A stretch of 64,000 bases of DNA, from the NCBI GenBank assembly GCA_000467715.1, contig AJFK01000037.1:85302-149301 (forward strand), given 5' to 3'. Below are positions 539 to 29,135 of the stretch, in pieces. The translations under genes were made by a program, and so were the position numbers. How positions within the stretch are numbered: position 1 is the first letter of the stretch; every line of letters starts with the position of its first letter. The notes under the pieces are model-generated. The model did no database searches, had not been told where the DNA came from, and was given only the letters and a program-made list of their open reading frames with translations. This stretch comes from Hysterium pulicare CBS 123377. Taxonomy: Eukaryota; Ascomycota; Dothideomycetes; Hysteriales; Hysteriaceae.

Positions 539-3361
539 ATGTCGCGGGTCGCCTTCAGCACTTCGCGCACTTCTATCCCTATCCATCACAATGTCAACAT
601 GTCGATACATGTACTTGGAAAAGCATATAACGCTATCACTCCTGTTCAGGCCGATGATCCGACTTTTATCTTAGTTGAACGACCCGGCAACCCGGAGCGC
701 CCGCCAGAGGAGGCATCCACCACGAGTAAATGCCATTTCTGTATACAGGATAGACAGAAGGTATGTTAATCTAGTCAGGTGGAACATAACGAGATAGCTA
801 ATTTTATCTTTCATTAGTGTGAGTGGGTTGAAGGACACTCCAAATGTACGCGTTGCGAGAGACTGAAATACTCGTGCTCGCTGCGCAAGGTCGAAACCTA
901 CCGCCGAACTCTAAGTAAACGTAAATGTGTATTTTGTCGGGAAGCAAAGCAGAAATGTTTGCCTATTGCTCGAGCTTGGCCTGAAAAATGCGACAGATGT
1001 GTATCTAAGGGCCTGGAGTGTTCTGAGCCACGAGCCTTTTCCAAAATCGACGCACAAAAGCGAGCTCGAGATGGCTTTTCCCCGCAGGATACACAGCTAT
1101 CTCCGACAATTTCGGCAGATATCTCTGACGGTAGTGTAATGCCTCAAGGAGATCAGCAAGGGAGTATGACCTGGCACAGCGGACCAGATTCCGAATTCGT
1201 GACTGAACATACCCAGCCTCACTCCTCAATCCTCAATCCTCGGCCCGCTTTTAGGGATATTGTTCGTCGCTCTGAGGTGTCATTTAGCCCACCCAAACGG
1301 ATGCGATTTGTGGATGCCGTGAGGGAGGTGAGAGAGGCGAGAAAGATGTCAAAGGGCACCGATTACTCATACCCACGTTTGACACATTCAAACGAGATTC
1401 GATTGTTGGTTTTGCTGCCGGCTGGAAGTGTGGACGAGGAGATCGCATGCTCGCTGGAAATTTGTCGACTTGGCGATCGACAATTTGAAGCCTTATCGTA
1501 CATTTGGGGCTACGACGACCCGAGCCATCGAATCACAATATTGTCCGCAACAAAAACATCATCACTTCCTGTCCGACCAAACTTACATTCAGCCCTACGA
1601 TTTCTACGACATATAGATCGGCCACGTCTTCTATGGGTCGATGCGCTGTGCATAAACCAGCAAGATGCTTCGGAAAAGAATGCACAAGTTTCTATGATTC
1701 CTCGTATATTACAAGAAGCTACAAATGTCTGCGCGTGGCTTGGGAATTCGACTGAAAATACTACCCTAGCTCTTGAGTTCATTCGCCTCCTTGTCACATC
1801 ATCTTCCTTGGATCATTTGCTGGCTTCTCAATTTTCGAAGAATTGGATAGCACTTATGGAACTGATGGCGCATCCTTATTTTCGACGTCGATGGATCGTG
1901 CAGGAAATTGCTCACTCAAGAAACGCATCTCTCCATTACGGTGACAAATGCTTACATTGGGACGACTTCGCCGATGCTATCATAATAGCAAACCACATGG
2001 AATCGGAATCGCACGCTATCTCGAGGTTGGTTCGCAATCATCGTGCGCTACACGATAATGTAGACTCGCTAGGAGACATCGCTTCATTAGGGGCAAGTGC
2101 GTTTGTTATGGTTGTTAGCAATGTTTTCCGGAAGTCAGCAGACGGGGAGATTCTTCAACGAATGATGACATTGGGAGATCTGCTATTCCACTTATCATAT
2201 AGTATCTCGACTGACCCTCGGGATGCTGTATACTCGATTTTGGGACTCGCTAGTGACGTCCTCATTAACTCTCCTGGTGAGCGATTTCGGGCGGTGGTAA
2301 TGGAAGCATTTCGAATGCAGCACCATAGAGAGCTTTCATATCAATCGTCACCATGGAGATTGGACCCTTTCGATAATTCTCCTGGTGAGCGGTTTCGGTC
2401 GTTGGTAACGAAAGCCTTTCAAAGGCAGCGTCATGCAAAGCTTTGGTATCAATCGCCGACACGCTCTCTAAAGATCGATTACATGAAGACCACTCTCGAA
2501 ATCTTCAAAGAATCCCTTCGACACATCATCCTGAGTTCGAAATGTTTGGATATCTTATGTCGACCGTGGGCACCAGCTCAAGTGGCCCCATTTCCGTCTT
2601 GGATCTCGACTTTAAATCGGGCTGCGTTTGAACCACACCTTCGAGGCTATTCTTTAGTTCGCATCAATGCCGACCCTCTTGTCGGGCCACCTGGGAAGGC
2701 ATACTTCAAGGCATCAGGAGACAGCAAGGCTTTCTGCAGCTTTGATGAAAACCCCGAGCATCGTGAATCACTCTTCGCTAACGGTTTCGTTCTCGACAAG
2801 ATTCAGGAAACACGGACCGAAGCCGTCGGAGGCAACATACCCACGAAATGGATGCAATTCGGGCACTGGATCGACACCACTAAAGCTCCACCAGACTGCT
2901 TCTGGCGCACTTTGGTAGCAGATCGAGGTCCTCGCGGAGAAAACGCACCAACATTCTACAGACGGGCATGCTACTCGCTTTTCGTACAAAATGGTACAAG
3001 CTCGGCTATTAATACAGAGAGACTTGTCTCGAACGAGCCCTATTCGATCCTAACAGAATTCGTTCAGCGGCTGCAAGCAGTGGTCTGGAACAGGCAAATG
3101 ATAAGGACGGAATCGGGCGCGCTGGGACTAGCGCCAGACTCGGCGGAACCAGGAGATCTGATCTGCATATTGTATGGATGTAGTGTGCCAGTTATCCTTC
3201 GACAAATCTCGCAGGGTGACCTAGCGCGAAATGGCACCATGAATCGACTTTTCACCTTTGTGGGAGAGAGTTTCGTATACGGCATGATGGATGGAGAGGC
3301 TATGAGAGCACGGGAGCTAAATCCATTATCATATCCCGAGGTAACCTTTGAAATACGTTAG
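539..3361 (+). CDS. HET-domain protein with two N-terminal Zn2Cys6 clusters
   Basis: Two exons, 539-760 and 818-3361, give 921 aa; the 57-bp intron (GTATGT...TTAG) is phase 0. The splice joins two halves of a cysteine cluster: Cys65, 68, 75, 84, 87, 94, spaced C-x2-C-x6-C-x8-C-x2-C-x6-C. A second cluster follows at Cys111, 114, 121, 132, 135, 142 (C-x2-C-x6-C-x10-C-x2-C-x6-C). Both fit the fungal Zn(II)2Cys6 spacing. A HET domain starts near residue 297 with FEALSYIWG and the WVDALCINQ motif, then DPRDAVYSILGLA further on. HET domains trigger cell death in fungal non-self recognition. Zinc clusters normally bind DNA, so the pairing is unusual; they might instead mediate protein contacts. A 36-aa segment is duplicated in tandem near residues 559-630. 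The function of this particular protein is inferred. Confidence 0.85.
2270..2485 (+). repeat. Intragenic 108-bp tandem duplication in the HET gene
   Basis: Two adjacent in-frame units start at 2270 and 2378. Each begins with codons for SPGERFR and carries an A-F-x-x-Q-x-H core followed by YQS. The copies have diverged at many positions, so the duplication is not recent. It lies just after the DPRDAVYSILGLA motif. Confidence 0.8.
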
Positions 3362-14122: not shown

Positions 14123-17100
14123 ATGCCAGTTCGAACTTTCACTCAGCCCAGCTCCTTGAGCGAGTCTCTGGCTACTGCAGGTTTCAAGATGTCTACCGCT
14201 CAGATGAACGGAGACTCCCGGTCGAATGAAGCGGCCAAAGATACTCAACAGTCGTTCTCCGCAGAAGCAAAATCACCTCTTGCTTCGCATACAAACCCAA
14301 ACTCAAAGCCGGGCATTACTTTTGCATCTCAAGACAAGCTTCCTAAACTTCCCATACCAGAGCTCGACAGCTCGTGTAAGAAATACATCGCAGCCTTGAA
14401 GCCACTACAGTCTCCGAAAGAACACAATGACACCAAACTGTCAGTGAACGATTTCCTCAAGTCTGACGGACCGGCCTTACAGGAGAAGCTCAAGAAGTAT
14501 GCGAACGGAAAGGCCAACTACATCGAGCAGTTCTGTATGTATTCTATGATATCACCATTCAGCACTATATCTCCACTTCATCTACATTACTCTCGTCAGA
14601 ATTTGCGAACTAAGCACTGACCATTTTCTAGGGTACGACTCGTACCTAAATTTTGATAATCCGGTGGTGCTTAATTTAAATCCGTTCTTTCTACTGGAGG
14701 ATGATCCCACCCCAGCAAGAAACAACCAAGTCACTCGGGCGGCGTCCCTGGTCATGTCGGCTCTTTCGTTCGTTCGCGCCGTGCGAAAAGAAGAATTACC
14801 ACCTGACACTGTCCGAGGGCAACCTCTTTGCATGTATCAGTACTCCAGATTATTCGGAACCGCAAGAATACCGACCGAGAATGGCTGCCAAATTGGCCAG
14901 GATCCGACGTCGAAGCATATCGTTGTCCTATGCCACGGCCAGTTCTATTGGTTTGATGTCCTTGATGATAACTCCGATCTCATTATGACAGAGAAGGATG
15001 TGGCGCTCAACTTATCTGTGATTGTCGAAGATGCGTCAGAGGTTCCCATTCAGGAAGCTGCCAAAGGCGCCCTCGGTGTGCTGAGCACAGAAAACCGCAA
15101 AGTCTGGTCAGGTCTCCGAGATGTCCTCCATCGAGAAGAAGGATCCAATAATTCGGATTGCCTAAACATCGTCGACTCGGCCTTGTTTATACTCTGCCTT
15201 GACTACACTGAGCCTCAGAGTGGTGCAGAACTTTGCATGAATATGCTTTGTGGTTCAAGCAAGGTTGAACGGGGAGTCCAAGTAGGCACGTGTACCAACC
15301 GTTGGTATGACAAGCTTCAAATCATTGTTTGTAAAAATGGTAGCGCTGGGATCAACTTCGAGCATACTGGCGTAGATGGCCATACCGTCTTGCGATTTGC
15401 AAGTGACGTATATACGGACACCATTCTGCGCTTCGCAAGGACGATCAATGGACAGGCTCCAAGTCTCTGGGCTTCCACAAGCCCAGACCCTGCGAAACGA
15501 GACCCAGAAAGTTTCGGAGACGTCCAAACGACACCTCACAAGCTGGAATGGGACATGGTTCCTGAATTAAGCACAGCTCTTCGTTTTGCCGAAACGCGTC
15601 TAGCAGACCTAATCCAGCAGAATGAGTTCGCGACTTTAGACTTCCCGCATTATGGCAAGAATTTTATGACTTCCATGGGCTTTTCTCCGGATGCCTTCGT
15701 TCAGATGGCCTTTCAAGCTGCTTACTATGGACTCTACGGCAGAATGGAATGTGTTTATGAGCCAGCTATGACCAAATTCTTTTACCATGGACGAACGGAA
15801 GCCATTAGATCCGTTACGGACGCGTCCGTTGAATTTGTACGAACTTTCTGGGGCGAAAACCCAGCGTCCGCAAAGATTGAAACTCTAAGAAAAGCTTGTC
15901 AGAAACACGTCGAAATCACTAAGGATTGCGCAAAGGCTCAAGGTCCTGATCGCCATCTCTATGCTCTTTACTGCATATGGCAGCGTGCAATTGACGAGGA
16001 AGGAGCTGAAATGGCCAGCAGTGACGGAATGGATTCAACACGACCATCAAGTCCCAATGGGTCTGAGAAGGTCAGCTCCGTCATCGGGTCTCCAGCTCGA
16101 AACTCTATCATTTCTGAAGATGGTTCCGTGTCCAGTTCACCTCATGGACATCACACTCAGCACTCAATGCCCACTCTATTCGCCGATGCCGGGTGGGATA
16201 AGCTCAATACCACCATTCTTTCTACATCAAATTGCGGGAACCCTTCGCTTCGTCAGTTTGGATTTGGTCCTACGTCCGGGGACGGCTTTGGCATAGGCTA
16301 TATTATCAAAGACGGCGGCATATCTATTTGCGCTTCATCCAAGCACAGACAAACCTCTCGTTTCATAGACGCTCTCGAGTCCTACTTCCTAGAAATCCGG
16401 AAACTCCTCCGACAACTCAAACGACGTGGTGCATCTGCCGACAAGACGGCCTCGCGAGCACGAGAAGCCGAAGACCGCCCGAAAGCGGCGCGCATAAAGA
16501 GTCGCGGTCGTATCATTCTCTCGGACGGCAAAATACAAACACCAGCAACAGAAAGCATCGCAGAGTCCGACGACGAAGGTCTTGGCGGCTGTAGGACACC
16601 CCCTTCCTTATATTTAGACCAGTATCCAACAAACATGCCCATCATCCCAAATTTACCCCCTACGCCGCCTCATTCACCACCGTTTAAGGCGTCGATACTT
16701 AGCTCACCGCGAAAGCGGCTGCATGTCAGCCAAGGTCGAAGATGCAGAGCGGTGGTGAAGAGGTTGCATCCGCATGCATTTTCTTAGATGATTTATTTTT
16801 CTTCTCTATCTATGCTTCCCTTTACTCATTTATTTCTCTGTGTTTTCTTGCGTCACCGCTACGGCTGTTATACACATATACCCGCCCAATAGAGAAGACG
16901 TGTATTCCAAATCGCTGTCAATCCGCATCCGCATCCATTCCTCTCCGCGGTAACTTGCCCCGTTTTCATTTTTACTGATTCTTCTCTCCTTTTCTTAGAT
17001 GGCTTCTTCGATGCGGGCATGCTGCTCTCGGCGCTCAAAGCGAAGGAAGAGACGCAGCCTCCGCCCAGCGACCCAGATGTGGTGAGGCGGAATATTGGGA

Positions 17101-17126: not shown

Positions 17127-18260
17127 GATCGATGCATTGGGTTTAGGTTTCCGGGAAGAAACGTATAGCATGAAATATAGTTGGGATAAATGTATTATGG
17201 TTAGGATGGATGGAATGGGAAATTTGTAAATTTGATATCTGTCTTGATGGGTGTTGATTTGGAGGGATTGGATGGAATGGCATTGTTTGATATCGATATT
17301 GATATTGTGGGATCAGCTTATGGAAGCACGGGAGATAGGTTCAATTATGAAGTATCTATACTGAATACTTTTGCATCGCAGTTATCGGTTGTTAACTTAT
17401 CAGTGAATGATGCACGTGATGCCAAGCTTTTCCCGAGTCAACGTCATCTTTTCATCTTTCTCCATGCTCGCATTCTTTCACTTTCCTTCGAACTTTCAGT
17501 TAATCGCGAATCGAACGTTGAATCTTTTCGAGCACAGGGTAATATCACGTTTCGCTTATGAGCGTATGCAGTTGTAATGGCAGGACGAATATCTGCGGTT
17601 GGAAGGTCAATTCGGGGACGCGATGGTACAGTAAATTCCGAGCGTAGGAGCTTCAGGTGAATATGCTCAATGTTTTCGTTTTTTTCATTTCAAATGAAAA
17701 GTCCGGTAGAAAGATATTGGTAATGCTCAACCACGCGTTAGCGGTGATTACTTTCAAAGCTCTCGATTATGGTTGATTTCATTGGTTGATGTAACGGTGA
17801 TTCTTTGATTTTGCATTCAATTCTCGTTGGTCTTAGAAAATTCAGGTGCATTCTCAATTTCCCAGAGCCGTTCAGGTACAGGAGAAGAAAACTAGGGGCA
17901 GTGAGCGTCATCCACCTTGACAGACTGCCCAGGTGGGTCTTGGGTGAAAGTCGGCGGTGGATTTTCGGTTATAGCATCATAGTCTGCTCGCTCGCTTCTC
18001 TTCACGCTGGCTGTCCCATTCAAGGTTCATTATTCTCGTCCGCCAGCATTACTTCGCAATACTTCTCAACAACTCAACCTTTGCACAGCGATGCTTTCAC
18101 CCACTCAGGAGAACGTTTGAACGCCGGGGCTCACGCTGAGAAACACCAAACACCAACCGTCGCCAAGCAATTCTTCCTCGACTAGAAGGCCACTCTGCGC
18201 AAGTCAAGTCTGCACGGCCCTCCTGCGCATTTGGTAATACGCCAACTTGGTTCTCAAACC
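17127..18260. other. Gene-free spacer before the RING array
   Basis: It holds the 3' untranslated region of the carnitine acetyltransferase gene and the promoter of the first RING gene. A 109-codon open frame at 17232 has no recognisable feature. Confidence 0.5.
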
Positions 18261-19616
18261 ATGTCTTTCAATTCAAGAATGGTGGCGCCCAACCTACTGA
18301 TGGCCGCCTCATATAATGACTTCCTCATGAACCATCTCAGGAAGTGTAAACCTCACACTACGCCATCTGATCCTTGCCCTATATGCCATGAGGCATACGA
18401 CAACTCTCACCATAGAGCTATACGAGTGACGAGAATCCAAGGCTGTTCGCATGTCTTTGGCATAGACTGTTTACACGGTTGGCTCACGAGTGGTCGACCG
18501 AACTGCAATACTTGCCCTATTTGCCGCCACATCTTCTGGCTGCGAGTACCTCGTCCTCTTGTTCCTCGGATGCCAGCAGCTCCTATCCGACAAGCGCGTT
18601 CGCCTCAGGTCGTTCCAGAGATCAGAATCGATTATCTGCCTTCTCATAACGCCAGTCCGAGGATTGAGATCACGCCAGAAGAGCGCCACCGAATGAATGA
18701 AGAGCTTCGAGCCAGGGTTGACGCAGAACTCGAGCAGTTGAATGACAGGTTCGATGAAGAGGTAGCTGGAAGAGTCGCTGCTTGGACGAGAGCGCAACAT
18801 CGCTCACCGCTCAACGATATTACAGAACAAGTTTGGGCCGACCGACGCGAGGCTGCGCCGACCCTTTCAGCGGTTGCTGAGTCTGACTTATCCGCACTGC
18901 CCAATGTCGGCGCACCTCGTACTGGTCGTCGCCCGGAAACTTTTGTCCCACCTGCACCTATAGCAACTGCATTTACTCCATCAAACTCAGAGCACCCGGC
19001 ACTTTTACTAGAAGATTCTGCGGCGAGTCTCTTGGAGACGCGTTTGAGTTTCATTGCGGACGATATTGCAGAGCTGAGGCGACGACGAACTGAGGTTTCC
19101 AACGCACGGGTACAGCAGGGACGGGAGCTTGAACGTCGCCAGCAAGCGCTCACTCGTCAAGAGGCACGACTCGATGGCCGAGAAGCTCAAATGAATTTCC
19201 GAGAGGAAGGTCTGAATAACCACTTCAGGCGACTTACTATACGACGAGCTGAACTGAATGGCCGTGAGCTCCGGTTAAACAATCGTGAGGAAGGCCTGAA
19301 TGGGCGAGAAGAGGGACTGAATGATCGAGCCGGCCAACTTGATCGTCGTCAAGCAATCCAGAACGATCGATTTGCGCAGCTTATTCGACGCGAGAAAGAA
19401 ATAGAGCGACGGGAAATTGAGCTGAACCTCGGCCGGGCGAATTTCAATCGTCGAGTTTCTGAGACCGAGAAGACTCTGGCGGAACGCGAGGCCGCGATGG
19501 ATGAGCGAGACACGGAACAAGATAAATTGCAACTCGAACTCATGGACAGGGAGACGCAGCTGAATGCTCAAAAGGCGAGTTTGGAGAAAGGTGTGACGGA
19601 ACAGCTGGATCGATAA
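18261..19616 (+). CDS. RING-finger protein with long heptad coiled coil
   Basis: A single exon encodes 451 aa; the start is the ATG at 18261. The RING begins at Cys39 (CPICHEAY) and continues through CSHVFGIDCLHGWL to CPICR. Cysteine and histidine ligands 1-4 and 6-8 are present, but the fifth ligand is Gly. About residues 245-451 form a charged coiled coil made of a degenerate seven-residue unit of type L-N-x-R-E-x-x, repeated many times. The family is presumably a ubiquitin ligase, with the coiled coil giving dimers or a partner-binding rod. It is the first and longest gene of the array. The middle (residues 105-245) is low-complexity and probably disordered. Confidence 0.8.
   Translation: MSFNSRMVAPNLLMAASYNDFLMNHLRKCKPHTTPSDPCPICHEAYDNSHHRAIRVTRIQGCSHVFGIDCLHGWLTSGRPNCNTCPICRHIFWLRVPRPLVPRMPAAPIRQARSPQVVPEIRIDYLPSHNASPRIEITPEERHRMNEELRARVDAELEQLNDRFDEEVAGRVAAWTRAQHRSPLNDITEQVWADRREAAPTLSAVAESDLSALPNVGAPRTGRRPETFVPPAPIATAFTPSNSEHPALLLEDSAASLLETRLSFIADDIAELRRRRTEVSNARVQQGRELERRQQALTRQEARLDGREAQMNFREEGLNNHFRRLTIRRAELNGRELRLNNREEGLNGREEGLNDRAGQLDRRQAIQNDRFAQLIRREKEIERREIELNLGRANFNRRVSETEKTLAEREAAMDERDTEQDKLQLELMDRETQLNAQKASLEKGVTEQLDR
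19150..19600 (+). repeat. Degenerate 21-bp coding repeats (heptads)
   Basis: The DNA repeats a unit encoding variants of LNxREEG. Examples are two neighbouring copies near 19285-19320. Copies differ at synonymous and non-synonymous sites, so this looks like expansion followed by divergence. Confidence 0.65.
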
Positions 19617-20179
19617 ATGACAAGTGACGTGGCTTCGATCGACCAAGCTGGACGTTTCCTTCCGGGCGTGGCATGTTTTTGCAACAATCAGTAGTGTTCT
19701 TCTCTTTTATGTGAATGTTGGCAAGTTGTCGTCACATCAGCGAATTTGTTCGTCCTCAAGGTAGGGCAGCTCACCTTACTTGAAGGATAATAATTCTGTA
19801 GCTTCGAATCTTTGCTTTGTTGAAGAGCAGTTTTCCCATGTATTCTATTGGAGGTTGGACCTGGCAGACTAGTGAGACGTGTATTTGTGAGTCAAAAGCA
19901 GTAAGATTATCATCGTAAGTACTAACATTCAATGATCTAGTTGCACGATGCTTGCATATCTGGATCTGCCTTTGTGCATTGTGCGTACACATAACAACAA
20001 ATCATTTGACACCCTTTCACGTACAGGTAGCTTGCTGAAACTAACTTCACACGAAGATCATATATCATGCTGATTTGTATCCCTTTATAAACTCCCTTGC
20101 CTTCTTATCTTCCTTTCTTCTAGTTTGCGAAACGCACGATCAGCACATTGCTCCGTCTAAATTCTCTTACTCCGCCGAC
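19617..20179. other. Spacer between RING genes 1 and 2
   Basis: No coding frame is supported. It contains a candidate TATA box at 20086. Confidence 0.5.
20086..20091 (+). promoter_or_regulatory. Candidate TATA box of RING gene 2
   Basis: TATAAA lies 94 bp before the ATG at 20180. Confidence 0.4.
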
Positions 20180-21091
20180 ATGTCCCGCAACCTACCAACG
20201 TGTTCCGAATTCATCGACCAACTCGAGCCCATTGTGTGTGGCATTTCTCATGACACCTTCGATGTTGAGAATCCGCCGGTTCGTACTCCTTGCGGCCATT
20301 ATTTCTCCAGACCTCTTCTCATTCAATGGTTCCAGTCTGATCGGTCAATGCGCAATACTTGCCCAATATGCCGGACAGAATTATGGAAGAAGGATGAGCA
20401 ATCGATACCTGATCGCGACATTCGTGATATGCTAGAGGCTAGATTCCCAACACAAACGCAGTTAATGCAAGTTGCGCAGTGGGTGTGGCAAAAGTTGTGG
20501 AATAGGAGGACTTCTCGGCCCTGGTCACCTGTCGATGGTGATGATGTTGATAGAACCGTTCAGCACTTCCTAGGACTTGCAGAACATCCTGACCACACAG
20601 GGCCGAGCCTTGAAATTCTCTTGCCGCACGTTCCTGGAGCTGGAACCCGCGGCCATCGATTCATCCTGTATACCAGCTGCGTGATGTACGTTACGTGGTG
20701 GCGCAATCAACAGCGCAATCTTGAGCGTGAAGACCTGGATACAGAAGGCATCACCACATTATGGCGGATGAGCGATTTCCCCAATCGAATCTTCGACTGG
20801 GATGCAATTGCAGTCGCAACGCAGACGAGGCCGAACGAGGACACCAGGGTGCGTCGATGGTTTCAGTACAACCTCTGGCTTCAGATGTTCTTCCTTATGC
20901 GAACCCACCCCCAATCTATAGACGACAACAAGGTCATCGAGTCCCGTGTTGAGCGTCTAGGGAAGTATCTAAAGCTAACAGGATCGCCGTCTCCATGGTT
21001 CATGTTAGAGATCAAGCGCATGTATAAGCACATGATCCATGTAGCGTCATCGACACCTCATCTAAGCTCACTTATTCCCCTGACTTATTAG
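20180..21091 (+). CDS. Degenerate RING-finger protein
   Basis: A single exon encodes 303 aa; the ATG at 20180 is preferred over the longer open frame, which lacks an ATG. The RING-like region reads CGISHDTF, then CGHYFSRPLLIQWF, then CPICR. Compared with its neighbours the second cysteine is Ser, the fifth ligand is Ser and the sixth cysteine is Leu. Zinc site 1 therefore keeps one of four ligands, while site 2 (Cys-His plus Cys-Cys) is intact. The rest is helical, with several W and R residues and a D-G-D-D-V-D-R-T-V segment resembling the C-terminal module of the other paralogues. Ubiquitin-ligase activity is doubtful; a scaffold or pseudo-ligase role is possible. Confidence 0.75.
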   Translation: MSRNLPTCSEFIDQLEPIVCGISHDTFDVENPPVRTPCGHYFSRPLLIQWFQSDRSMRNTCPICRTELWKKDEQSIPDRDIRDMLEARFPTQTQLMQVAQWVWQKLWNRRTSRPWSPVDGDDVDRTVQHFLGLAEHPDHTGPSLEILLPHVPGAGTRGHRFILYTSCVMYVTWWRNQQRNLEREDLDTEGITTLWRMSDFPNRIFDWDAIAVATQTRPNEDTRVRRWFQYNLWLQMFFLMRTHPQSIDDNKVIESRVERLGKYLKLTGSPSPWFMLEIKRMYKHMIHVASSTPHLSSLIPLTY

Positions 21092-22012
21092 GGAATCCCG
21101 TGTAACGAGGCCTCGCATTGGAGAGCACCCTGAGCTCTTAACTTATTAAGAACGATAATTTTTGGCACAGCGAGACTTTGGGTAGCATCCTGCGCATGTG
21201 CAAGGAAGACAGAGAAGCCGATATACCGGCCACCGCAGCGCCCTTTACAGAGGAATATCATAAGTAGCAAATTGAAGCCATATTTTTGATCTCGCTTTTT
21301 CGTAAGTGTATGTTATTTACTCAAGTAAAAGTATACGAGGAAAATACGTTGAATGAGAACTAAACACAAAATCAAAGAAACACCATGACATCATTCAATG
21401 GGATCAACCATAAATGAGAGTTCTAAATATAATCATGACTTACGCGTCAGTGTATCGATAATACTTTCCCCACATTTTCAAAGGTGTTTTCAACATTAGT
21501 GTAAACTATCATTTAACAAAACAGCTATCTTTCTCTAACAATGCTTCGACTCATGGAGATGAAGTCTTTGCTACGCTTGATGCATTGTTCATGTAAAGAG
21601 AATAGATACCACGTGGACATTAGAATCAGGTGATAGGGCCTATTCAGTATAGAAACGTATCCCGGATGGTCGGGGAGCGATTCATCTCGCCTACAATACA
21701 CTCTGTTGGCTTACCAATTGATCCTACACTAATATTCATCGTTCACACCTACCTTGTATTATAGTTTATTCACAACTTCTACGCGCTGAGCATATTTCCA
21801 CGCTCACACTACCTCAAACACTGTACATCCACATCGACGACGGCAATAATTTTTCAGTATAAAAGCAATATAATGTGCTCTTTGCTCTCCTTTTATTTTC
21901 CTTCACATAAAGCGCACTTCCTTCCACGAACGCACAAACCTAGGCGCGATTTTCACCATCAGCTAATACTTTCGGCTCCAAATCACCTCTTTTTTCAACA
22001 CACCCACCAAGC
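21092..22012. other. AT-rich spacer between RING genes 2 and 3
   Basis: About 0.9 kb without a supported coding frame. It probably contains the 3' region of gene 2 and the promoter of gene 3. Confidence 0.5.
21858..21865 (+). promoter_or_regulatory. Candidate TATA box of RING gene 3
   Basis: TATAAAAG lies 155 bp before the ATG at 22013. Confidence 0.4.
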
Positions 22013-22903
22013 ATGTCTCAAAACACTTCGCTCCCGACGCGACTCCACTTCCTTTTTGGCCATCTAGTTCCTCTCGGACCCACCGAGCATCCTCCGGAAC
22101 CACAATGCGAGATCTGCCAAGAAGATTACAATGATCGGCATGCACCCGTCCACTTCGAGGATTACGCTCCCTGCAGCCATGTTTTCGGTCAGTCTTGCAT
22201 CATGGATTGGTTCCTGGAAAACCCTGATGCGAACACTTGCCCCAAGTGCCGTCGCGTTCTCTTCCAAGGGAACGGTTATAGACATAGAGACGCATATTCG
22301 GGTTCGGATTCAGATTCGGATTCAGATTTACACTCAGATCCAGATGAAGACTCAGATTCAGATGAAGACTCAGATTCCAATGAAGACGAAAACGAAGATG
22401 AAGATGAAAATGAAAATGACCCCGAGAACGTTTGGGATATGCGATGCTTTTCTCATAACCTACGCAATTGGATGGAGCTTCCGGAGGCATCTAGGCTTAT
22501 TCAGGAACGTATTGACCACATTCCCTGGGTCAACGGATGCGAGCATAACGCAGCCATTGTTGTCTTCGTCCAAGAACTCTGGGAGGCACTTTATGACGTG
22601 CGGGGAGGACAACATTCTTCTATCGACAGCGATGATATATCTGACACGATAGAGGCAGTCCTGGTCTCACACAACTTTCTGTATCTCGGGTATGAGTGGA
22701 TGACTCTAAGGGCAGTTGCCCGAGACATGGTGCGTATGCAGTTCAATATCCGAGGATTCCATGAGATGAGCGATGTGCAGTTAAGGAGCTTTACTGAGCG
22801 ACTGAGGAATATGATGACACGGGTCCATATCAGGGCAGACAATATATTTGACTCCACCGCTTTGGGTCAACCTTACTACACGCCATTGGGTCAACCTGAC
22901 TGA
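22013..22903 (+). CDS. RING-finger protein with acidic Ser-Asp tract
   Basis: A single exon encodes 296 aa. The RING starts near residue 32 with CEICQEDY, then CSHVFGQSCIMDWF and CPKCRRVLFQ. Ligand five is Gly, and His39 in the D-R-H-A-P segment matches the conserved His of the paralogues. A tract of about 45 residues made of Ser-Asp and then Glu-Asp-Asn repeats follows (near residues 97-140). The C-terminal ~150 residues are helical, with a tryptophan-containing E-L-W-E-A-L segment and the S-D-D-I-S-D-T-I segment that resemble the shared module of its neighbours. The likely role is ubiquitin conjugation; the substrate is unknown. Confidence 0.8.
   Translation: MSQNTSLPTRLHFLFGHLVPLGPTEHPPEPQCEICQEDYNDRHAPVHFEDYAPCSHVFGQSCIMDWFLENPDANTCPKCRRVLFQGNGYRHRDAYSGSDSDSDSDLHSDPDEDSDSDEDSDSNEDENEDEDENENDPENVWDMRCFSHNLRNWMELPEASRLIQERIDHIPWVNGCEHNAAIVVFVQELWEALYDVRGGQHSSIDSDDISDTIEAVLVSHNFLYLGYEWMTLRAVARDMVRMQFNIRGFHEMSDVQLRSFTERLRNMMTRVHIRADNIFDSTALGQPYYTPLGQPD
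22300..22425 (+). repeat. Coding microsatellite (Ser-Asp / Glu-Asp)
   Basis: Imperfect GATTCA/GATTCG hexamers pass into GAAGAT-type repeats, all in frame inside RING gene 3. Such tracts change length by slippage. Confidence 0.75.
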
Positions 22904-23848
22904 GAGAACTGCCCTTGAAGGTTTGGCGTATTACTGCAATTACTTTAGTCCGTAGTTCTTCGCTGAAATCCTCAGGCTTAGCATGACAACCTGTGTGTTC
23001 CAGCCGAATGAGTTTATAATAGCAATCCAATATCATGGGTTTCAAATATTCGAAAAACAATACGTGAGTGCTCCAGACTTTGATAAGTTTTTTGTAATGT
23101 CTGCCGTTCCTCCGGCTAAACCTGTTGAGATCGAGTGGTTGGGTGCTAGTACCAGCCACCTTTCCCCTATATAGTCCCTCCGCGAACACCTACAATCAAG
23201 CATTTTACCTCTCTACCTCTCTCTCGCGTGTCTGTGTGATTTAATTTCAATAAAACCTCATCCGGAACAGGAAGAATTGGTAGTCAAAGAAAGATGTCAG
23301 GGTAGACGATATCAAGACCAAGACCAAGTCCGAGACTGTATTTAGCTTCATTCCTCAAGGCTCTTCTAGACAAACCGGCGTCACCTGTTAGACTGAGGGC
23401 AACCACAAGCTCGGCAGCATTTTATGTAAGTCACATTGTAATGATTGTGTGGAACGTGGGGAGACGTTTTGCGCTGACCACGATGCTACTGTTCAGGGGT
23501 GGCCACAGCACACGACTTATATAGAACTATGGGAAACATCGATGTGTGCACAGGGTCTGAGTTCATTAAAGTCAAAGTACCCATCGATGACGGTGGGTTT
23601 CTCGCCACCGAGGACCGGACGTTAATAATCTCACATTCGAGATTCCTACATTGTGTAAATACATTTCACTTTCCTTTGACCTTCACAGAACCAGTGAACA
23701 TCCTATTTTTCTGTGCTTCTATGTCCGCATAATGTATATTCATCAATGTAGACACAAATTACCATGTATAAATTCCATAAGAGCAAAGGCTCTCCTGCTC
23801 GTCTTCCATCTTCCTCCCATACCTGTTTCAAAGAAGGAAAATCTGAGG
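22904..23848. other. Spacer between RING genes 3 and 4
   Basis: It contains no frame with recognisable homology. The segment 23649-23705 is similar to 24719-24775 upstream of RING gene 5, so the upstream region took part in the duplication. A 77-codon open frame at 23499 is not supported. Confidence 0.5.
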
Positions 23849-24487
23849 ATGCCTACCCATACTCACGCTCTTCCAAATAGAAACGAGTTCCTTGCGAACA
23901 ACCTCCTCGAGCAGGATCCAACATGCGGAATCTGTCATGAGCCCTACGATGAGACGGACCACCGTCCGGCAGCTTTCTTAGGTGGATGCGCGCATATCTT
24001 TGGAGGACCATGTATTCGGAGATGGCTTGAAGGGCGCGCGGGCAATTATAACAAGTGCCCCACCTGTCGAGAGGTTCTTTTCCAACGCGATCTGCCCCCG
24101 AATACTATCTTGATTCCTCGGCCTCGCGAAGATAATGCTACGGGGGACGACCTTTCTGACTTGCCAATCGAAGAGGCCATGAGACGAATTCAGGAGAGCA
24201 TGACTGGATTAAGGGGTTACGATGCTTCTCGATTGTTCCTTAGGGGCGTTCTCTTGATAATCCGACATTGTGTAGCAAGTGCAGGACATACAGTCACCGA
24301 AGACATGCAAGACGGTATGCGGCGAATAAATGTTCTCATTAACTCGGATGATAATGCTACGCTGCTACGGATTCGGGAGGCCCTGCCGCCATCAGGTGTC
24401 GGGCAAGAATTTTCGCAATTCGAGTGGGGAGAATTCATTGTGCTGCGAGTACGAGACATATTGATCTCGTCGGGTCTGGCCGGATGA
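23849..24487 (+). CDS. RING-finger protein, short form
   Basis: A single exon encodes 212 aa from the ATG at 23849; an open frame without ATG extends upstream. The N-terminus (NEFLANNLLEQ) precedes a RING: CGICHEPYDETDHRP, CAHIFGGPCIRRWLEG, CPTCREVLFQ. The fifth ligand is Gly. One C-terminal helical module follows, with A-R-L-F-L-R-G-V-L, the T-E-D-M-Q-D-G-M-R-R-I centre and a final L-R-V-R-D-I-L-I-S. The next gene (24956) is the closest paralogue, sharing most RING residues and the GGPCIRRWLEG block. It is probably an E3-type protein; the target is unknown. Confidence 0.8.
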   Translation: MPTHTHALPNRNEFLANNLLEQDPTCGICHEPYDETDHRPAAFLGGCAHIFGGPCIRRWLEGRAGNYNKCPTCREVLFQRDLPPNTILIPRPREDNATGDDLSDLPIEEAMRRIQESMTGLRGYDASRLFLRGVLLIIRHCVASAGHTVTEDMQDGMRRINVLINSDDNATLLRIREALPPSGVGQEFSQFEWGEFIVLRVRDILISSGLAG

Positions 24488-24955
24488 GTTCATAATAATG
24501 AATCTAATACCATATATTTCGTATTTTAGACAAACATAACAGGGGTGCTCCAGCGTGTGATTTCGCTCTTTACATTTGCCCTAGAGTTAGATTTACTGTC
24601 ACAGAAATAGTTTGCCATATGTTTCAACTCCTATTCGCCGTTTTTGATAAGTGATTTCAACTTCCGTGTGGTCTGATTAGGCTCAACTTACTGAGATTTC
24701 ATCAACTGTACGTTTCTAACATTGTGTATTTACATCCTACTTTCCTCAAATTTTCACAGACTTGATCAATATCCTGAGAATCCAATGCTTGCAATTTATA
24801 TCCTATTTCATTGGCATGAATCACCCGAATACCTACCCAGACACTTTGTATAATACTCAAATTTATCCACAGTAAACTCAGAACTCTTCTCCAGACCCAA
24901 GTTCCGCAAAAGCTACCACCCACAACTTCAGGCTTTCGAAAAGAGAAGCTAGAAA
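24488..24955. other. Spacer between RING genes 4 and 5
   Basis: It contains the upstream block similar to that of RING gene 4 (around 24719-24775). No coding frame is supported. Confidence 0.55.
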
Positions 24956-26101
24956 ATGTCTACTTCTACCGCCGCTATCGTTAGTAGAGAAGACTTCATC
25001 GCCAACCACCTGCATGAGCAAGCCCTGACCTGTGGTATCTGTCGTGAGGCCTACAACGAGACCGATCATCCTCCGACAGTTTTCTCGGGTAGCAACACCT
25101 GCTGGCATATTTTTGGAGGACCATGTATCCGGAGATGGCTGGAGGGGCAGGAGGGCAATTATAATACCTGCCCAGCCTGTCGAACAGTTCTTTTCCAGCG
25201 TGACCTAGATTCGAACGAGAACGAGCTCTCGCTATTCAGTCTCCTTTCCACTGAAGATCTGGCGCAACCGCCTCCAGTGAGCCACTGGACCGACGGAATA
25301 GAGGAGCTCCTGGATATGGCCACAGAGGTTCCCGACCTGATTGGAAGCCCTGTGGATAATGCTCGATCCTTCGTCTACAGCGTTCTTGAGCGGCTAAGTT
25401 CTGTTCATACATCAAATCCAGAGCATACAGCTAGCGAAGACGTGCGAGATGGCATTGAGCGGTTACAAATTCTCCTTTACTCGGCGAATCGCGCTACCTT
25501 CCTCCGAATCAACGAGTATACTACCCCAGCGCATGATGGGCATAACCACTGGACACTCGAGCAGACGGAAGAAATTGTGTTGCAGTTGCGAGAGCTTTTG
25601 ATCTCTGTGGACGAACATCAACAGCAAGGCGATGACCAGATGCAAACTGCTGAGGAGCAAACGACATTTCGAGCTCAGGAAGAGGCCTTGCTTCCTGAGG
25701 TACTTCACGATGAGCAAGGTAATCCTCAAGCATCAACAATCGATATTTCGACCGAAGCGGTGCACAGGTTAACTCTCGAGATGTGGCAAGCTTGCTGGGA
25801 ACTCCATCAAGATGGCCAGAGGTTAGAATCGGGCTTGGTCGATCATACTGACGTATGCAACATGCTCGACCGGGTCCTCCCACCTTCCCAAGATCTCGAT
25901 TATCTGAGGAGGCAATATCGTAATATCCTAGCAAGCACACTTGCTTACGAGATGTTAGGATTGCATCAACAAAAAGGCAGCCTCCAGCCATTGGATGATC
26001 CAACGCTATCCTGGTTCTGTGAAGTAACCTTGAAGGAGGTGTTCAGGAGCTATGATGAGGATACTAATAACTTCTTTCATGTTGAAAATGAGGGGTCGTA
26101 G
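24956..26101 (+). CDS. RING-finger protein with two C-terminal helical modules
   Basis: A single exon encodes 381 aa. The RING is near residues 26-82: CGICREAYNETDHPP, CWHIFGGPCIRRWLEG, CPACRTVLFQ; the fifth ligand is Gly. A first helical module (about residues 125-220, with A-S-E-D-V-R-D-G-I-E-R-L) matches the single module of the preceding gene. After a Gln/Glu-rich linker, a second module (about residues 260-345, with VHRLTLEMWQACWELHQDG) matches the C-terminus of the next gene, 26722. This copy therefore joins the two module types found separately in its neighbours. The high similarity of the RING to the 23849 gene indicates recent duplication. Confidence 0.8.
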   Translation: MSTSTAAIVSREDFIANHLHEQALTCGICREAYNETDHPPTVFSGSNTCWHIFGGPCIRRWLEGQEGNYNTCPACRTVLFQRDLDSNENELSLFSLLSTEDLAQPPPVSHWTDGIEELLDMATEVPDLIGSPVDNARSFVYSVLERLSSVHTSNPEHTASEDVRDGIERLQILLYSANRATFLRINEYTTPAHDGHNHWTLEQTEEIVLQLRELLISVDEHQQQGDDQMQTAEEQTTFRAQEEALLPEVLHDEQGNPQASTIDISTEAVHRLTLEMWQACWELHQDGQRLESGLVDHTDVCNMLDRVLPPSQDLDYLRRQYRNILASTLAYEMLGLHQQKGSLQPLDDPTLSWFCEVTLKEVFRSYDEDTNNFFHVENEGS

Positions 26102-26721
26102 AGTAAGTCGTGTAGAAATTAGTCAGCACATTCAGAGGGTTATTATAATAGATAGGTTCAGAAGCTTGCTCCGCCTTTCGTCAATGAACTCAATTCAAGC
26201 ATGTGTTGTATGAGAGCATAACTTTCAAAGTTGCTTGTGTGATAAGACCCCGTGTATTGGCTTCGGCGATAACCAGTGATGGAATTCAATTGAAATTAAG
26301 AAGTGGGAATTGAAGTCGAGGTTGGGGTATCGAGCTAACCTCCTTCAGTGTAGCGTCTAAGGTACTTTAGATCCCACTTCATCACAGTTCATCGAACAAT
26401 CATGACAACTCTACTCCAACCCATGCAAACCCCAATAACCTCACTGATAGATGTTTCCTAGCGTATGGATCTTCTCTTGAACTTCGTACATTGTACATGT
26501 ACAATTCACAGGATGCCCCCGAGCTGTCAAAGAACGGGTGGATTTCATCCGAATCGTAATCTTTCCCAATTTCACAATGCATTCTAATATTGGAGCACAT
26601 TCCAGGCAATTTATTTCTTTTTCTTATATGAAGGCTTTGGTTCCTCTCTCTGATAACCTCTTCAACAACTCACACCATCTTCCCCTACTCCGTAATCAAC
26701 TTCTACAACCAACTCGAAAAG
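26102..26721. other. Spacer between RING genes 5 and 6
   Basis: No supported coding frame is present. A stretch near 26487-26512 (ACATTGTACATGTACAATTC) is a near-palindrome and recalls the ACATTGTGTA block upstream of genes 4 and 5. Confidence 0.5.
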
Positions 26722-27669
26722 ATGCCTTCCAACCGCGGCCAACTCCCAAACATGCAAGAGTTTATCGAAAGCAAGCTCCTCGGGCAAGAGCTTACTTGTG
26801 TAATTTGCAGCGAAGCTTACGATGAAGATGATCATTGTCCGGTCACTTTCTCTGACAGTCTGTGCGCACACATGTTTGGGCGTACCTGCATTATAAAATA
26901 GTTCGAAACACGCACAGGCAACTCTCATAAATGTCCTCTCTGTCGCAAACCCCTTTTCAAGAAAGTCCGGCCCGAGATCTCAAATACGATTGATGAATAT
27001 GCTCGTTCACATGCTGTGGTGATGGTTGCGCGGCAACGCCTTGATGCAGCTATGAATCGTCTAGCCGAGCATAACCGCCAAGGTCTACGCGCTAGGACTG
27101 AAACTAGTCAGGCTAGAATAGTGGACGCATCTTCAGAATCTCCAGTGTTAATGCATTCGGTAAATCTGGAGAGCAGCCGCAATCAGGTACAGTCGCTGTC
27201 TCAAGATGGAGCAATCTCTGCTGAGAATGAGCCCGTACATCAAGAAATTGAATCCTTCGTAGTAGACCTAAGGGACAGTATGGCACCCTCCAATGCGCAA
27301 ACTGCTCGCCCATTAGGACAAGTGATTGAGAGTCAAATACCCCCATCTATCCAGATGACGACAGACCGCACGGTCAATTTATCGCCAGAAGGAATAGAAA
27401 GACTGACCTTGGAAGCTTGGCAGACCTGCTGGACGCTCTTTCAGCAGGAGGAAGCATCGTCGACCGGGAGGATCACGCGCGCGGAGATCCTTCGTACGCT
27501 CGAACCCTTATTCCCTCGTTTGCAAGTTCCTTACGGAATTGAGAGTCTGCACAGAACTGCTCGAAGTATGATGCGATATCATGCTACCAACGAAACGTTT
27601 CTGTCCTTAACTAACTTTGAACTCAGAATCTTCATGCGTCGGGTTAGGCGCTTGCTTTCGATCGAATGA
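26722..27669 (+). pseudogene. RING-finger paralogue with a stop at the conserved Trp codon
   Basis: From the ATG at 26722 the frame encodes a RING: CVICSEAYDEDDHCP, CAHMFGRTCIIK, then a TAG at 26899-26901, then CPLCRKPLF and 256 more codons in the same frame to 27669. The paralogues have Trp (TGG) exactly at the TAG, as in CIRRWLEG, so one G-to-A change explains it. The downstream frame is otherwise open and retains the C-terminal module (IERLTLEAWQTCWTLFQQ). If translated to the stop it would give 59 aa ending inside the RING. The loss looks recent. A read-through product or a sequencing error cannot be excluded from the sequence alone. Confidence 0.75.
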
Positions 27670-28349
27670 TGCACAATGCTGATTTCTTTATTGGTAGGCA
27701 GTACATCGCTAGAAGACTAAAATAAGTTGGGGTCTAGTTAGATGACTTACGCCGTATGTAAGTGACACAAATATAACTTATCACAATGAACTATTAAGGC
27801 CAGTTGTCTCCCGTGACTTCCACTTGACTAAGGATCTTATCCGAAATGAAGCTCATGTGTTCTGAAGTCGAGATTTCACTGGAATGTTCCATTCCTCTGA
27901 GCAAACATAAGGAGCAAACGGTGATTATGGGCAATATTAGACCCCTGAATTCTTCGTCTAAAGTCACGGCTTACAGTTGAACGGATTTATATGTGCGGTA
28001 ACATTTTAGAAGTACATGATTCAAGCATTCACCAAAATGCTTGATAAACTTGACTTCTTGTATAGTGATTCCACATTCAGTGATGCAAAGAGTGTCTCCT
28101 CTCGTCACACGAGATGATTATATAGACGAACAAAACTGAGTAGCTCTGCGGTTCCTTCACCTGGTCAGTCATCAATTATCAGTTCACAGTCTATTCCTTC
28201 ATTTTATTATCAACTCGACTATACTATACCCTACTCTCCCCACTGTTTCTTCTCGAACTCCAAGTCTTTTAGCTACAACTACGCAAAAAGACCAACCTCT
28301 ACCAATCTCTATCAACTCCTACAAACCACTACAAATCTCCCAATCGGCG
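27670..28349. other. Spacer between RING genes 6 and 7
   Basis: No supported coding frame. Pyrimidine-rich sequence from 28190 to 28340 probably forms the leader of RING gene 7. Confidence 0.5.
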
Positions 28350-29135
28350 ATGTCGCCATCTATCCCTACCGACCGAGACGTTTTCATCAGAGATCATCTC
28401 GACACACTAGAATGTGGCATATGTATGGAGAGCTTTACTGAGGAACATTACCCAGTCCGTATTTCGGGGATTGCTGGATGTTCTCATGTATTCGGTGCTC
28501 AATGCCTGATTCAGTGGATTGAATCAGATAACGGGAATGCACACACTTGTCTAGTGTGCCGCACTAAGTTCTTCCAGCCGGAGGAAGCTCCAGATGATGG
28601 AGGTCCGGGAGAGGCTGCTCAAGAGGAGGTAGATCGCAATCATGCAGATTCAGACCAAGAAGATACAGATGAGGAAGGTTCCGAGGAGTTAGATGCAGAA
28701 CGGGGAGCTTCAGAGGACGAGGGGAGTGCATACATGCCTTCCGACGACGAAGGGGAGAATGCTTCTCCCGACGAAGGCAGTTTCACAGACATTCAAGCAA
28801 AGACCTTCATCCTCCACTTTTACCTACAAATGCGTCAACGTTGCCGCCGGCCGAACTTGAACAACGCTCACTCTCTCCGCCCAACGCCCGCGAGGTTTGC
28901 GCTCACTCGTCGTGACATCGATGCGGGCATCCAGCGCGTTCTTCAGACAATGAACAAGCGAATTCAACGGAGCCAGCATGACCAGCTCGTCATAATCGCC
29001 TTGAAATTTCCCGGTAGGATTGCAGCAGATCCTGGGTTGCTTGAACCCTTGAGGATATTACCGAAGGTTTTTGAAAAATGGGAAGAGAAGGCAGAAATCC
29101 TTCAGGTGCTTGGCGCTGATGAAGCTGGGGAATGA
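28350..29135 (+). CDS. RING-finger protein with acidic linker
   Basis: A single exon encodes 261 aa. The RING lies near residues 22-76: CGICMESFTEEHYPV, CSHVFGAQCLIQWIES, CLVCRTKFFQ; the fifth ligand is Gly, and Leu replaces the Pro of CPxCR. An Asp/Glu-rich stretch of about 60 residues follows, then a helical C-terminal part with LTRRDIDAGIQRVLQTM, which aligns with the module centre of the other paralogues. It is the last gene of the array. Confidence 0.8.
   Translation: MSPSIPTDRDVFIRDHLDTLECGICMESFTEEHYPVRISGIAGCSHVFGAQCLIQWIESDNGNAHTCLVCRTKFFQPEEAPDDGGPGEAAQEEVDRNHADSDQEDTDEEGSEELDAERGASEDEGSAYMPSDDEGENASPDEGSFTDIQAKTFILHFYLQMRQRCRRPNLNNAHSLRPTPARFALTRRDIDAGIQRVLQTMNKRIQRSQHDQLVIIALKFPGRIAADPGLLEPLRILPKVFEKWEEKAEILQVLGADEAGE

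Follow-up and report, generated by a model that had tools for sequence, protein, structure and literature searches.

The window analysed here, a 64,000-nucleotide stretch of the genome of the dothideomycete Hysterium pulicare CBS 123377 (contig AJFK01000037.1, positions 85,302 to 149,301 of the forward strand; here contig C31 of a 37.2-Mb assembly in 596 contigs), carries at positions 18261-29135 of its + strand seven head-to-tail genes, R1 to R7, each containing a RING domain. They were delineated from stop-to-stop open reading frames (ORFs) and Pfam matches. Metal ligand 5 of the RING is a glycine in R1, R3, R4, R5, R6 and R7, a feature on which a first-pass annotation of this DNA was silent. 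Such domains belong to RING-G, a known class that is reported to be rare in plants and flies and that outnumbers each of the two other core types counted in this genome. The genes probably encode members of a soluble, single-subunit RING-G family of ubiquitin ligases (E3s) with a shared head binding the ubiquitin-conjugating enzyme (E2), variable tails, a zinc site 1 completed from a loop, and turnover by birth and decay. This proposal builds on the observed RING match, Gly, recurrence of the loop residue, sharing of tail modules, clustering and non-monophyly of the array; its predicted parts are E3 activity, zinc coordination and a substrate role of the tails. Judged from sequence, a sizeable RING-G E3 family appears to be real, ordinary in its plan and unusual in its RING class.

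Glycine at ligand 5 and a probable E2-binding head

The usual eight Cys/His ligands are incomplete in all seven RINGs: six have Gly at ligand 5, and R2 has Ser, Ser and Leu in place of ligands 2, 5 and 6, with its second zinc site (ligands 3, 4, 7 and 8) intact. The Gly occupies the place of the His or Cys that follows C-x-H-x-F, where an alignment with RNF4 puts the RNF4 Cys. RING-G (C3HGC3) has been defined as having Gly at ligand 5 and a Cys or His at each of the seven remaining ones (PMC3166285); R1, R3, R4, R5 and R7 show this strict pattern, R2 does not and R6 is interrupted. Among 57 strict-pattern ORFs, all from retrieved loci of our own choosing, 26 are RING-G, 24 RING-H2 and 6 RING-HC, and one has Asp. 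Genome-wide, the core C-x-H-[FLIMV]-[FY]-X-x-x-C was found with Gly (RING-G) at 25 places, His (RING-H2) at 19 and Cys (RING-HC) at 18, and the same patterns read backwards as a control gave 3, 2 and 3 places, respectively. The array (R1 and R3 to R7) supplies six of the 25 RING-G cores. Surveys elsewhere counted one RING-G among the 477 RING domains of Arabidopsis (PMC6969932), 7 among the 1272 of wheat (PMC8169666) and, in Drosophila, 6 among 139 proteins (PMC3166285). No fungal census of RING-G or C3HGC3 was found in the open literature; the single fungal paper naming RING-G merely lists the class in its accessible text (PMC7072944).

R1 to R5 and R7 exceed the curated Pfam cut-off for zf-RING_2 (PF13639; 27.3 bits), with E values of 2e-6 to 5e-10. 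The part of R6 after its in-frame stop, which was the part given to the Pfam search, had no match by itself, and the R6 RING place scored 32.8 bits in a whole-genome PF13639 search in which the tool read through the stop. The assignment of these RINGs to the ubiquitin-ligase type by the first-pass annotation is supported.

The E2-contact residues Ile, Trp and Pro and the Arg after ligand 8 are all present in R1, R3, R4 and R5, while in R7 the Pro that lies between ligands 7 and 8 is replaced by Leu. Across the 26 RING-G ORFs, Ile is found in 21, Trp in 18, Pro in 24 and Arg in 19. This retention bears on the idea that the RINGs, missing ligand 5 and having a weak zinc site 1, are non-catalytic and serve as scaffolds or compete with active ligases. 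Such a role would fit the Gly at ligand 5 in five of five intact members, the loss of three site-1 ligands in R2 and that of the E2-contact Pro in R7, but the E2-contact residues are mostly kept and the RING of the R4/R5 pair changes at about one third of the pace of the tail. Moreover, human RFWD3 is itself a RING-G protein. RFWD3 is described as an E3 for RPA and RAD51 (PMC11346458), and most plant RING proteins, including those with substituted ligands, are reported to be E3-active in vitro (PMC6969932). We hold a non-catalytic family to be quite unlikely.

Under the E3 proposal, the RING would recruit a shared E2~ubiquitin and the tail (coiled coil, acidic tract, module A, module B or A plus B) would most likely pick the substrate or partner. 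A short segment with the approximate pattern R..F[IL].N.L appears to head each protein and is predicted to be helical in the models of R4 and R5.

A proposed substitute for ligand 5 in the loop upstream of ligand 3

The motif X-x-[PA]-[V or similar]-x-[I or similar] could be placed upstream of ligand 3 in all 26 RING-G ORFs, its frame being picked by eye where several fitted. Position X is occupied by His in 15 of them, by Glu in 6, by Cys in 3 (all from cluster C276) and by Asp in 2. The motif was placeable in 24 of the 31 other RINGs, and X was His or Cys in none of these 24; at least two of the remaining seven have a His nearby. A rule blind to the motif scored 19 of the 26 RING-G domains versus 8 of the 31 others (Fisher p 5e-4). 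Neither the Gly nor the loop His varies among the five intact window members, and when ten RING-G members were aligned, all ten had the Gly and nine the loop His. R2, devoid of three site-1 ligands, is also devoid of the loop His and has Asn at that position. Based on this recurrence, we propose that the loop His would replace ligand 5 and complete zinc site 1 in the five intact members, a role that Cys, Glu or Asp may take in some relatives at other loci of this genome. A broader formulation, to which we give somewhat less than even credence, is that RING-G is a rewired cross-brace whose fourth site-1 ligand has moved to the loop, and that it has become the main clustered E3 type of one dothideomycete, with tails behaving as exchangeable modules.

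Several observations weigh against a replacement ligand. One C232 RING-HC has a loop His alongside a ligand 5 that is Cys, and L030 has kept the loop His though its ligand 1 is gone. A test of the Gly/loop-His association that takes descent into account had three usable pairs only and shows nothing; independence of the link between loop residue and Gly from common descent is, on these sequences, not established. On the RING tree, which was built from 69 columns and is poorly resolved, the residue must switch nine times between Gly and another one, and well-supported branches impose three of these switches, so that RING-G may have had more than one origin or loss.

A UniRef protein labelled Aegilops tauschii (P0001) contains two RING-G-like segments, the second with a His that precedes ligand 3 by 6-7 residues, as seen by eye. 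According to the accessible text of the 2011 fly survey, no orthologous RING had a solved structure and binding of two zinc ions was assumed (PMC3166285); no study of the RFWD3 zinc site surfaced in open-literature listings. The roughly two dozen fungal RING-G cores are natural variants showing which residue changes alongside Gly, and with them the metal-binding question becomes directly testable.

Array organization, clustering and divergence

The RING and tail of each array gene share one reading frame, and the genes are separated by spacers of about 0.5-1 kb. No further ORF of at least 150 amino acids was found in these spacers, and where longer ORFs occur in other frames, they overlap RING genes. 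The seven RING genes in a row on one strand over 11 kb, uninterrupted by any unrelated gene, are thus as first annotated, and so are their widely differing bodies, with a coiled-coil-like tail in R1, a Ser-Asp tract in R3, an acidic linker in R7 and helical modules in R3 to R6 (Table 1).

Table 1. Positions in the window of the RING array genes and of two further genes
Feature	Position	Strand	Description
HET	818-3358		HET-domain (heterokaryon incompatibility) gene, 847 amino acids
Carnitine acyltransferase	14550-16784		Upstream of the array
R1	18261-19616	+	RING-G, RING ~18375-18527; long charged coiled-coil-like tail
R2	20180-21091	+	Degenerate RING, ~20237-20374
R3	22013-22903	+	RING-G, RING ~22103-22252; Ser-Asp tract ~22298-22405; helical module B 22547-22822
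R4	23849-24487	+	RING-G, RING ~23921-24070; helical module A 24152-24472
R5	24956-26101	+	RING-G, RING ~25028-25183; module A 25286-25609, then module B 25748-26053
R6	26722-27669	+	RING-G, in-frame TAG 26899-26901 mid-RING; module B 27379-27666
R7	28350-29135	+	RING-G, RING ~28410-28562; acidic linker

The R1 tail gave weak RNase_Y_N and SMC matches only. Module A occurs in R4 and again in the front half of the R5 tail, module B in R3, the R6 tail and the back half of the R5 tail; R5 therefore combines two modules of which R4 and R6, on either side of it, have one each. In low-confidence models, both modules of R5 and module A of R4 are all-helical. Since the other retrieved RING ORFs yielded just weak matches to module B (L031, E 0.019; L021, E 0.86), the modules look local to the array among the retrieved loci. 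The array is a compact example of modular tail exchange. At L031 (C73:62401-63500), a RING-G ORF (1-708) is overlapped by an ORF in another frame (494-1099), which bears the weak module B match; a frameshift or an intron is possible. The closest RING to that of R7 lies on contig C152 (63% identity over 79 amino acids), and a resemblance between the two tails was sought and rejected (no detectable similarity, E 0.55).

R2 and R6 are impaired members. The frame of R6 stays open beyond the TAG, and an intron removing the stop was discarded, no normally spaced splice sites being seen by eye around it. Repeat-induced point mutation (RIP) was also discarded as an explanation for the decay, since in 2-kb windows the array has RIP indices close to those found elsewhere in the window.

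PF13639 identified at least 104 RING places genome-wide, 95 of them over the cut-off (five of these only jointly with in-frame neighbours), and an iterated RING profile gave 77 domain matches in 73 ORFs of the retrieved loci. Another place lies within 10 kb for 47 of the 104, forming 14 clusters; scattering 104 places at random 2000 times left a mean of 5.6 and a maximum of 21 clustered. The longest runs count 11 places (C290) and 7 (the present array), and no run in the 2000 random trials exceeded 4. Together with the degenerate and interrupted members, this clustering bears out the birth-and-death pattern put forward in the first-pass annotation. The family would grow and decay through tandem duplication, relocation between clusters, tail exchange and pseudogene formation. 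Among the papers listed by open-literature searches on RING expansion in Dothideomycetes or other fungi, no title or abstract opening reported such arrays.

Two other clusters deserve mention. Contig C290 (33 kb, L009-L012) is RING-H2-rich over its whole length and has more RING-like ORFs besides its 11 PF13639 places. Four tandem RING-G-like ORFs, one shortened by a stop, lie at C276:52001-62000 (L023); the three with a strict RING have a loop Cys instead of His as well as membrane-type tail stretches, and the set is adjoined by a HET fragment containing stops.

Grouping the five intact array RINGs as one clade was rejected (approximately unbiased (AU) test, p 0.0031), and a single local expansion does not account for the array. 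The RINGs of R4 and R5 fall together with those of the two C274 genes (98/95), and that of R7 with C152 and C73 (98/92). The word paralogues in the first-pass annotation consequently holds in a wide sense only, the nearest RING to R7 being the one on C152. Segmental duplication was rejected too: at the DNA level, and within the detectable range, the window shares with the retrieved loci short repeats and the R7/C152 RING only.

Between R4 and R5, the nonsynonymous rate (dN) rises from 0.22 in the RING to 0.65 in the tail, while the synonymous rates (dS) are 1.1 and 1.3; these rates fit a constrained head and a weaker constraint on the tail and do not speak for positive selection. Among five pairs, dS was 1.05 or 1.20 in two and not estimable in three, and dN/dS was 0.48 and 0.38 in the two estimable ones; the dN of the R7/C152 tail came from a forced alignment and was left unused. 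The diversifying selection expected from the first-pass annotation is unsupported by these values. They also bear on a recognition family, whose tails would be positively selected for non-self or partner recognition in incompatibility or in mycovirus or host contact. Tails differing in kind, the roughly threefold faster change of the R4/R5 tail than of the RING and the birth-and-death pattern all speak for it, but dS is saturated and neither estimable pair has dN/dS above 1. Neither are HET genes in excess near RING loci: with at least 150 HET places scored of 226 candidates genome-wide, one of which is the window gene at 818-3358, 5, 7 and 9 of 73 RING loci lie within 5, 10 and 20 kb of one (3.2, 6.0 and 11.2 expected). 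A link to heterokaryon incompatibility was accordingly dropped, the 7 loci within 10 kb being no more than chance predicts. Host contact, suggested as well, is unlikely to involve secretion of the window members, in which simple hydropathy found no membrane or signal-like stretch; several RING-G members in C276, C188 and C180 do have membrane-type hydrophobic stretches. A recognition family thus seems unlikely.

With the R5 protein as query, none of 3661 candidates came up as a homologue at E<=1e-3, and a ten-member profile found one among 7150 (plant-labelled and itself RING-G), whereas the neighbouring carnitine acyltransferase, used as a control, gave 2798 matches at E<=1e-20 among 7995 scored. 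These searches need shared five-residue words and cover a protein database without genome context. Their outcome agrees with fast divergence and suggests either lineage restriction or very fast change. We consider lineage restriction of the family likely, short of proof, from these word-based comparisons. An old stable cluster would instead consist of ancient duplicates with seven fixed housekeeping jobs, conserved in related fungi, their low similarity reflecting age. While the dS above 1 of the closest tandem pair, R4/R5, and the lack of recent near-identical DNA-level copies among the retrieved loci are in keeping with such age, R5 and the profile have no close relatives in a dothideomycete-rich database in which the flanking gene reaches 89% identity; moreover, one member is interrupted (R6) and another degenerate (R2). 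Old age combined with stability hence appears improbable.

The best matches of the carnitine acyltransferase, a comparison of a single gene and not a phylogeny, are from Zopfia rhizophila (89% identity) and Mytilinidion resinicola (88%), followed by other dothideomycetes. Ten more window ORFs were scanned, giving HET, fungal transcription factor, Rad51-like, calcineurin-like phosphatase, Mid1, AMP-binding, Velvet and WD40 matches; two of the ten had no domain match. Rfam and tRNA searches of the window had no match, and NCBIfam gave just low-complexity or sub-cut-off matches. An interspersed repeat of about 125 bp flanks R1-R2 in opposite orientation (17710-17831 and 21352-21447); the first copy has 40 other scored genome matches among 201 candidates, and copies are also found in the C290 and C440 arrays.

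Comparison with known RING families

The intact array members share with the RING-G class of plants and Drosophila the Gly at ligand 5 and the seven other ligands, and the plant-labelled P0001 resembles the fungal family, by eye, in its His before ligand 3. A class listed as a rare oddity in plant and fly surveys leads the core counts of this fungus. The best sequence match of the array RING is RNF4, which differs by its Cys at ligand 5. Structure alignments of the predicted models matched RNF13, RNF12 and RNF38, pre-RING helix included; these proteins have Cys or His at ligand 5 and tails unrelated to those of the array. In RFWD3 the RING is followed by a WD40 propeller (PMC11346458), and no WD40 match was found in six array proteins or in the after-stop part of R6.

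The plan of the array proteins recalls that of ATL-type proteins, which are RING-H2 proteins of plants. ATL-type families are membrane-anchored. Like the proposed array family, they are large, single-subunit E3 families of diverse architecture (PMC3161093). Closer in RING class, the Drosophila C3HGC3 genes represent a similar, lineage-restricted growth of RING-G, five of the six being reported to have no human ortholog, with an average identity of 54% (PMC3166285). The array RINGs are more divergent, the four other intact members having 34-40% identity to R1, and their tails differ.
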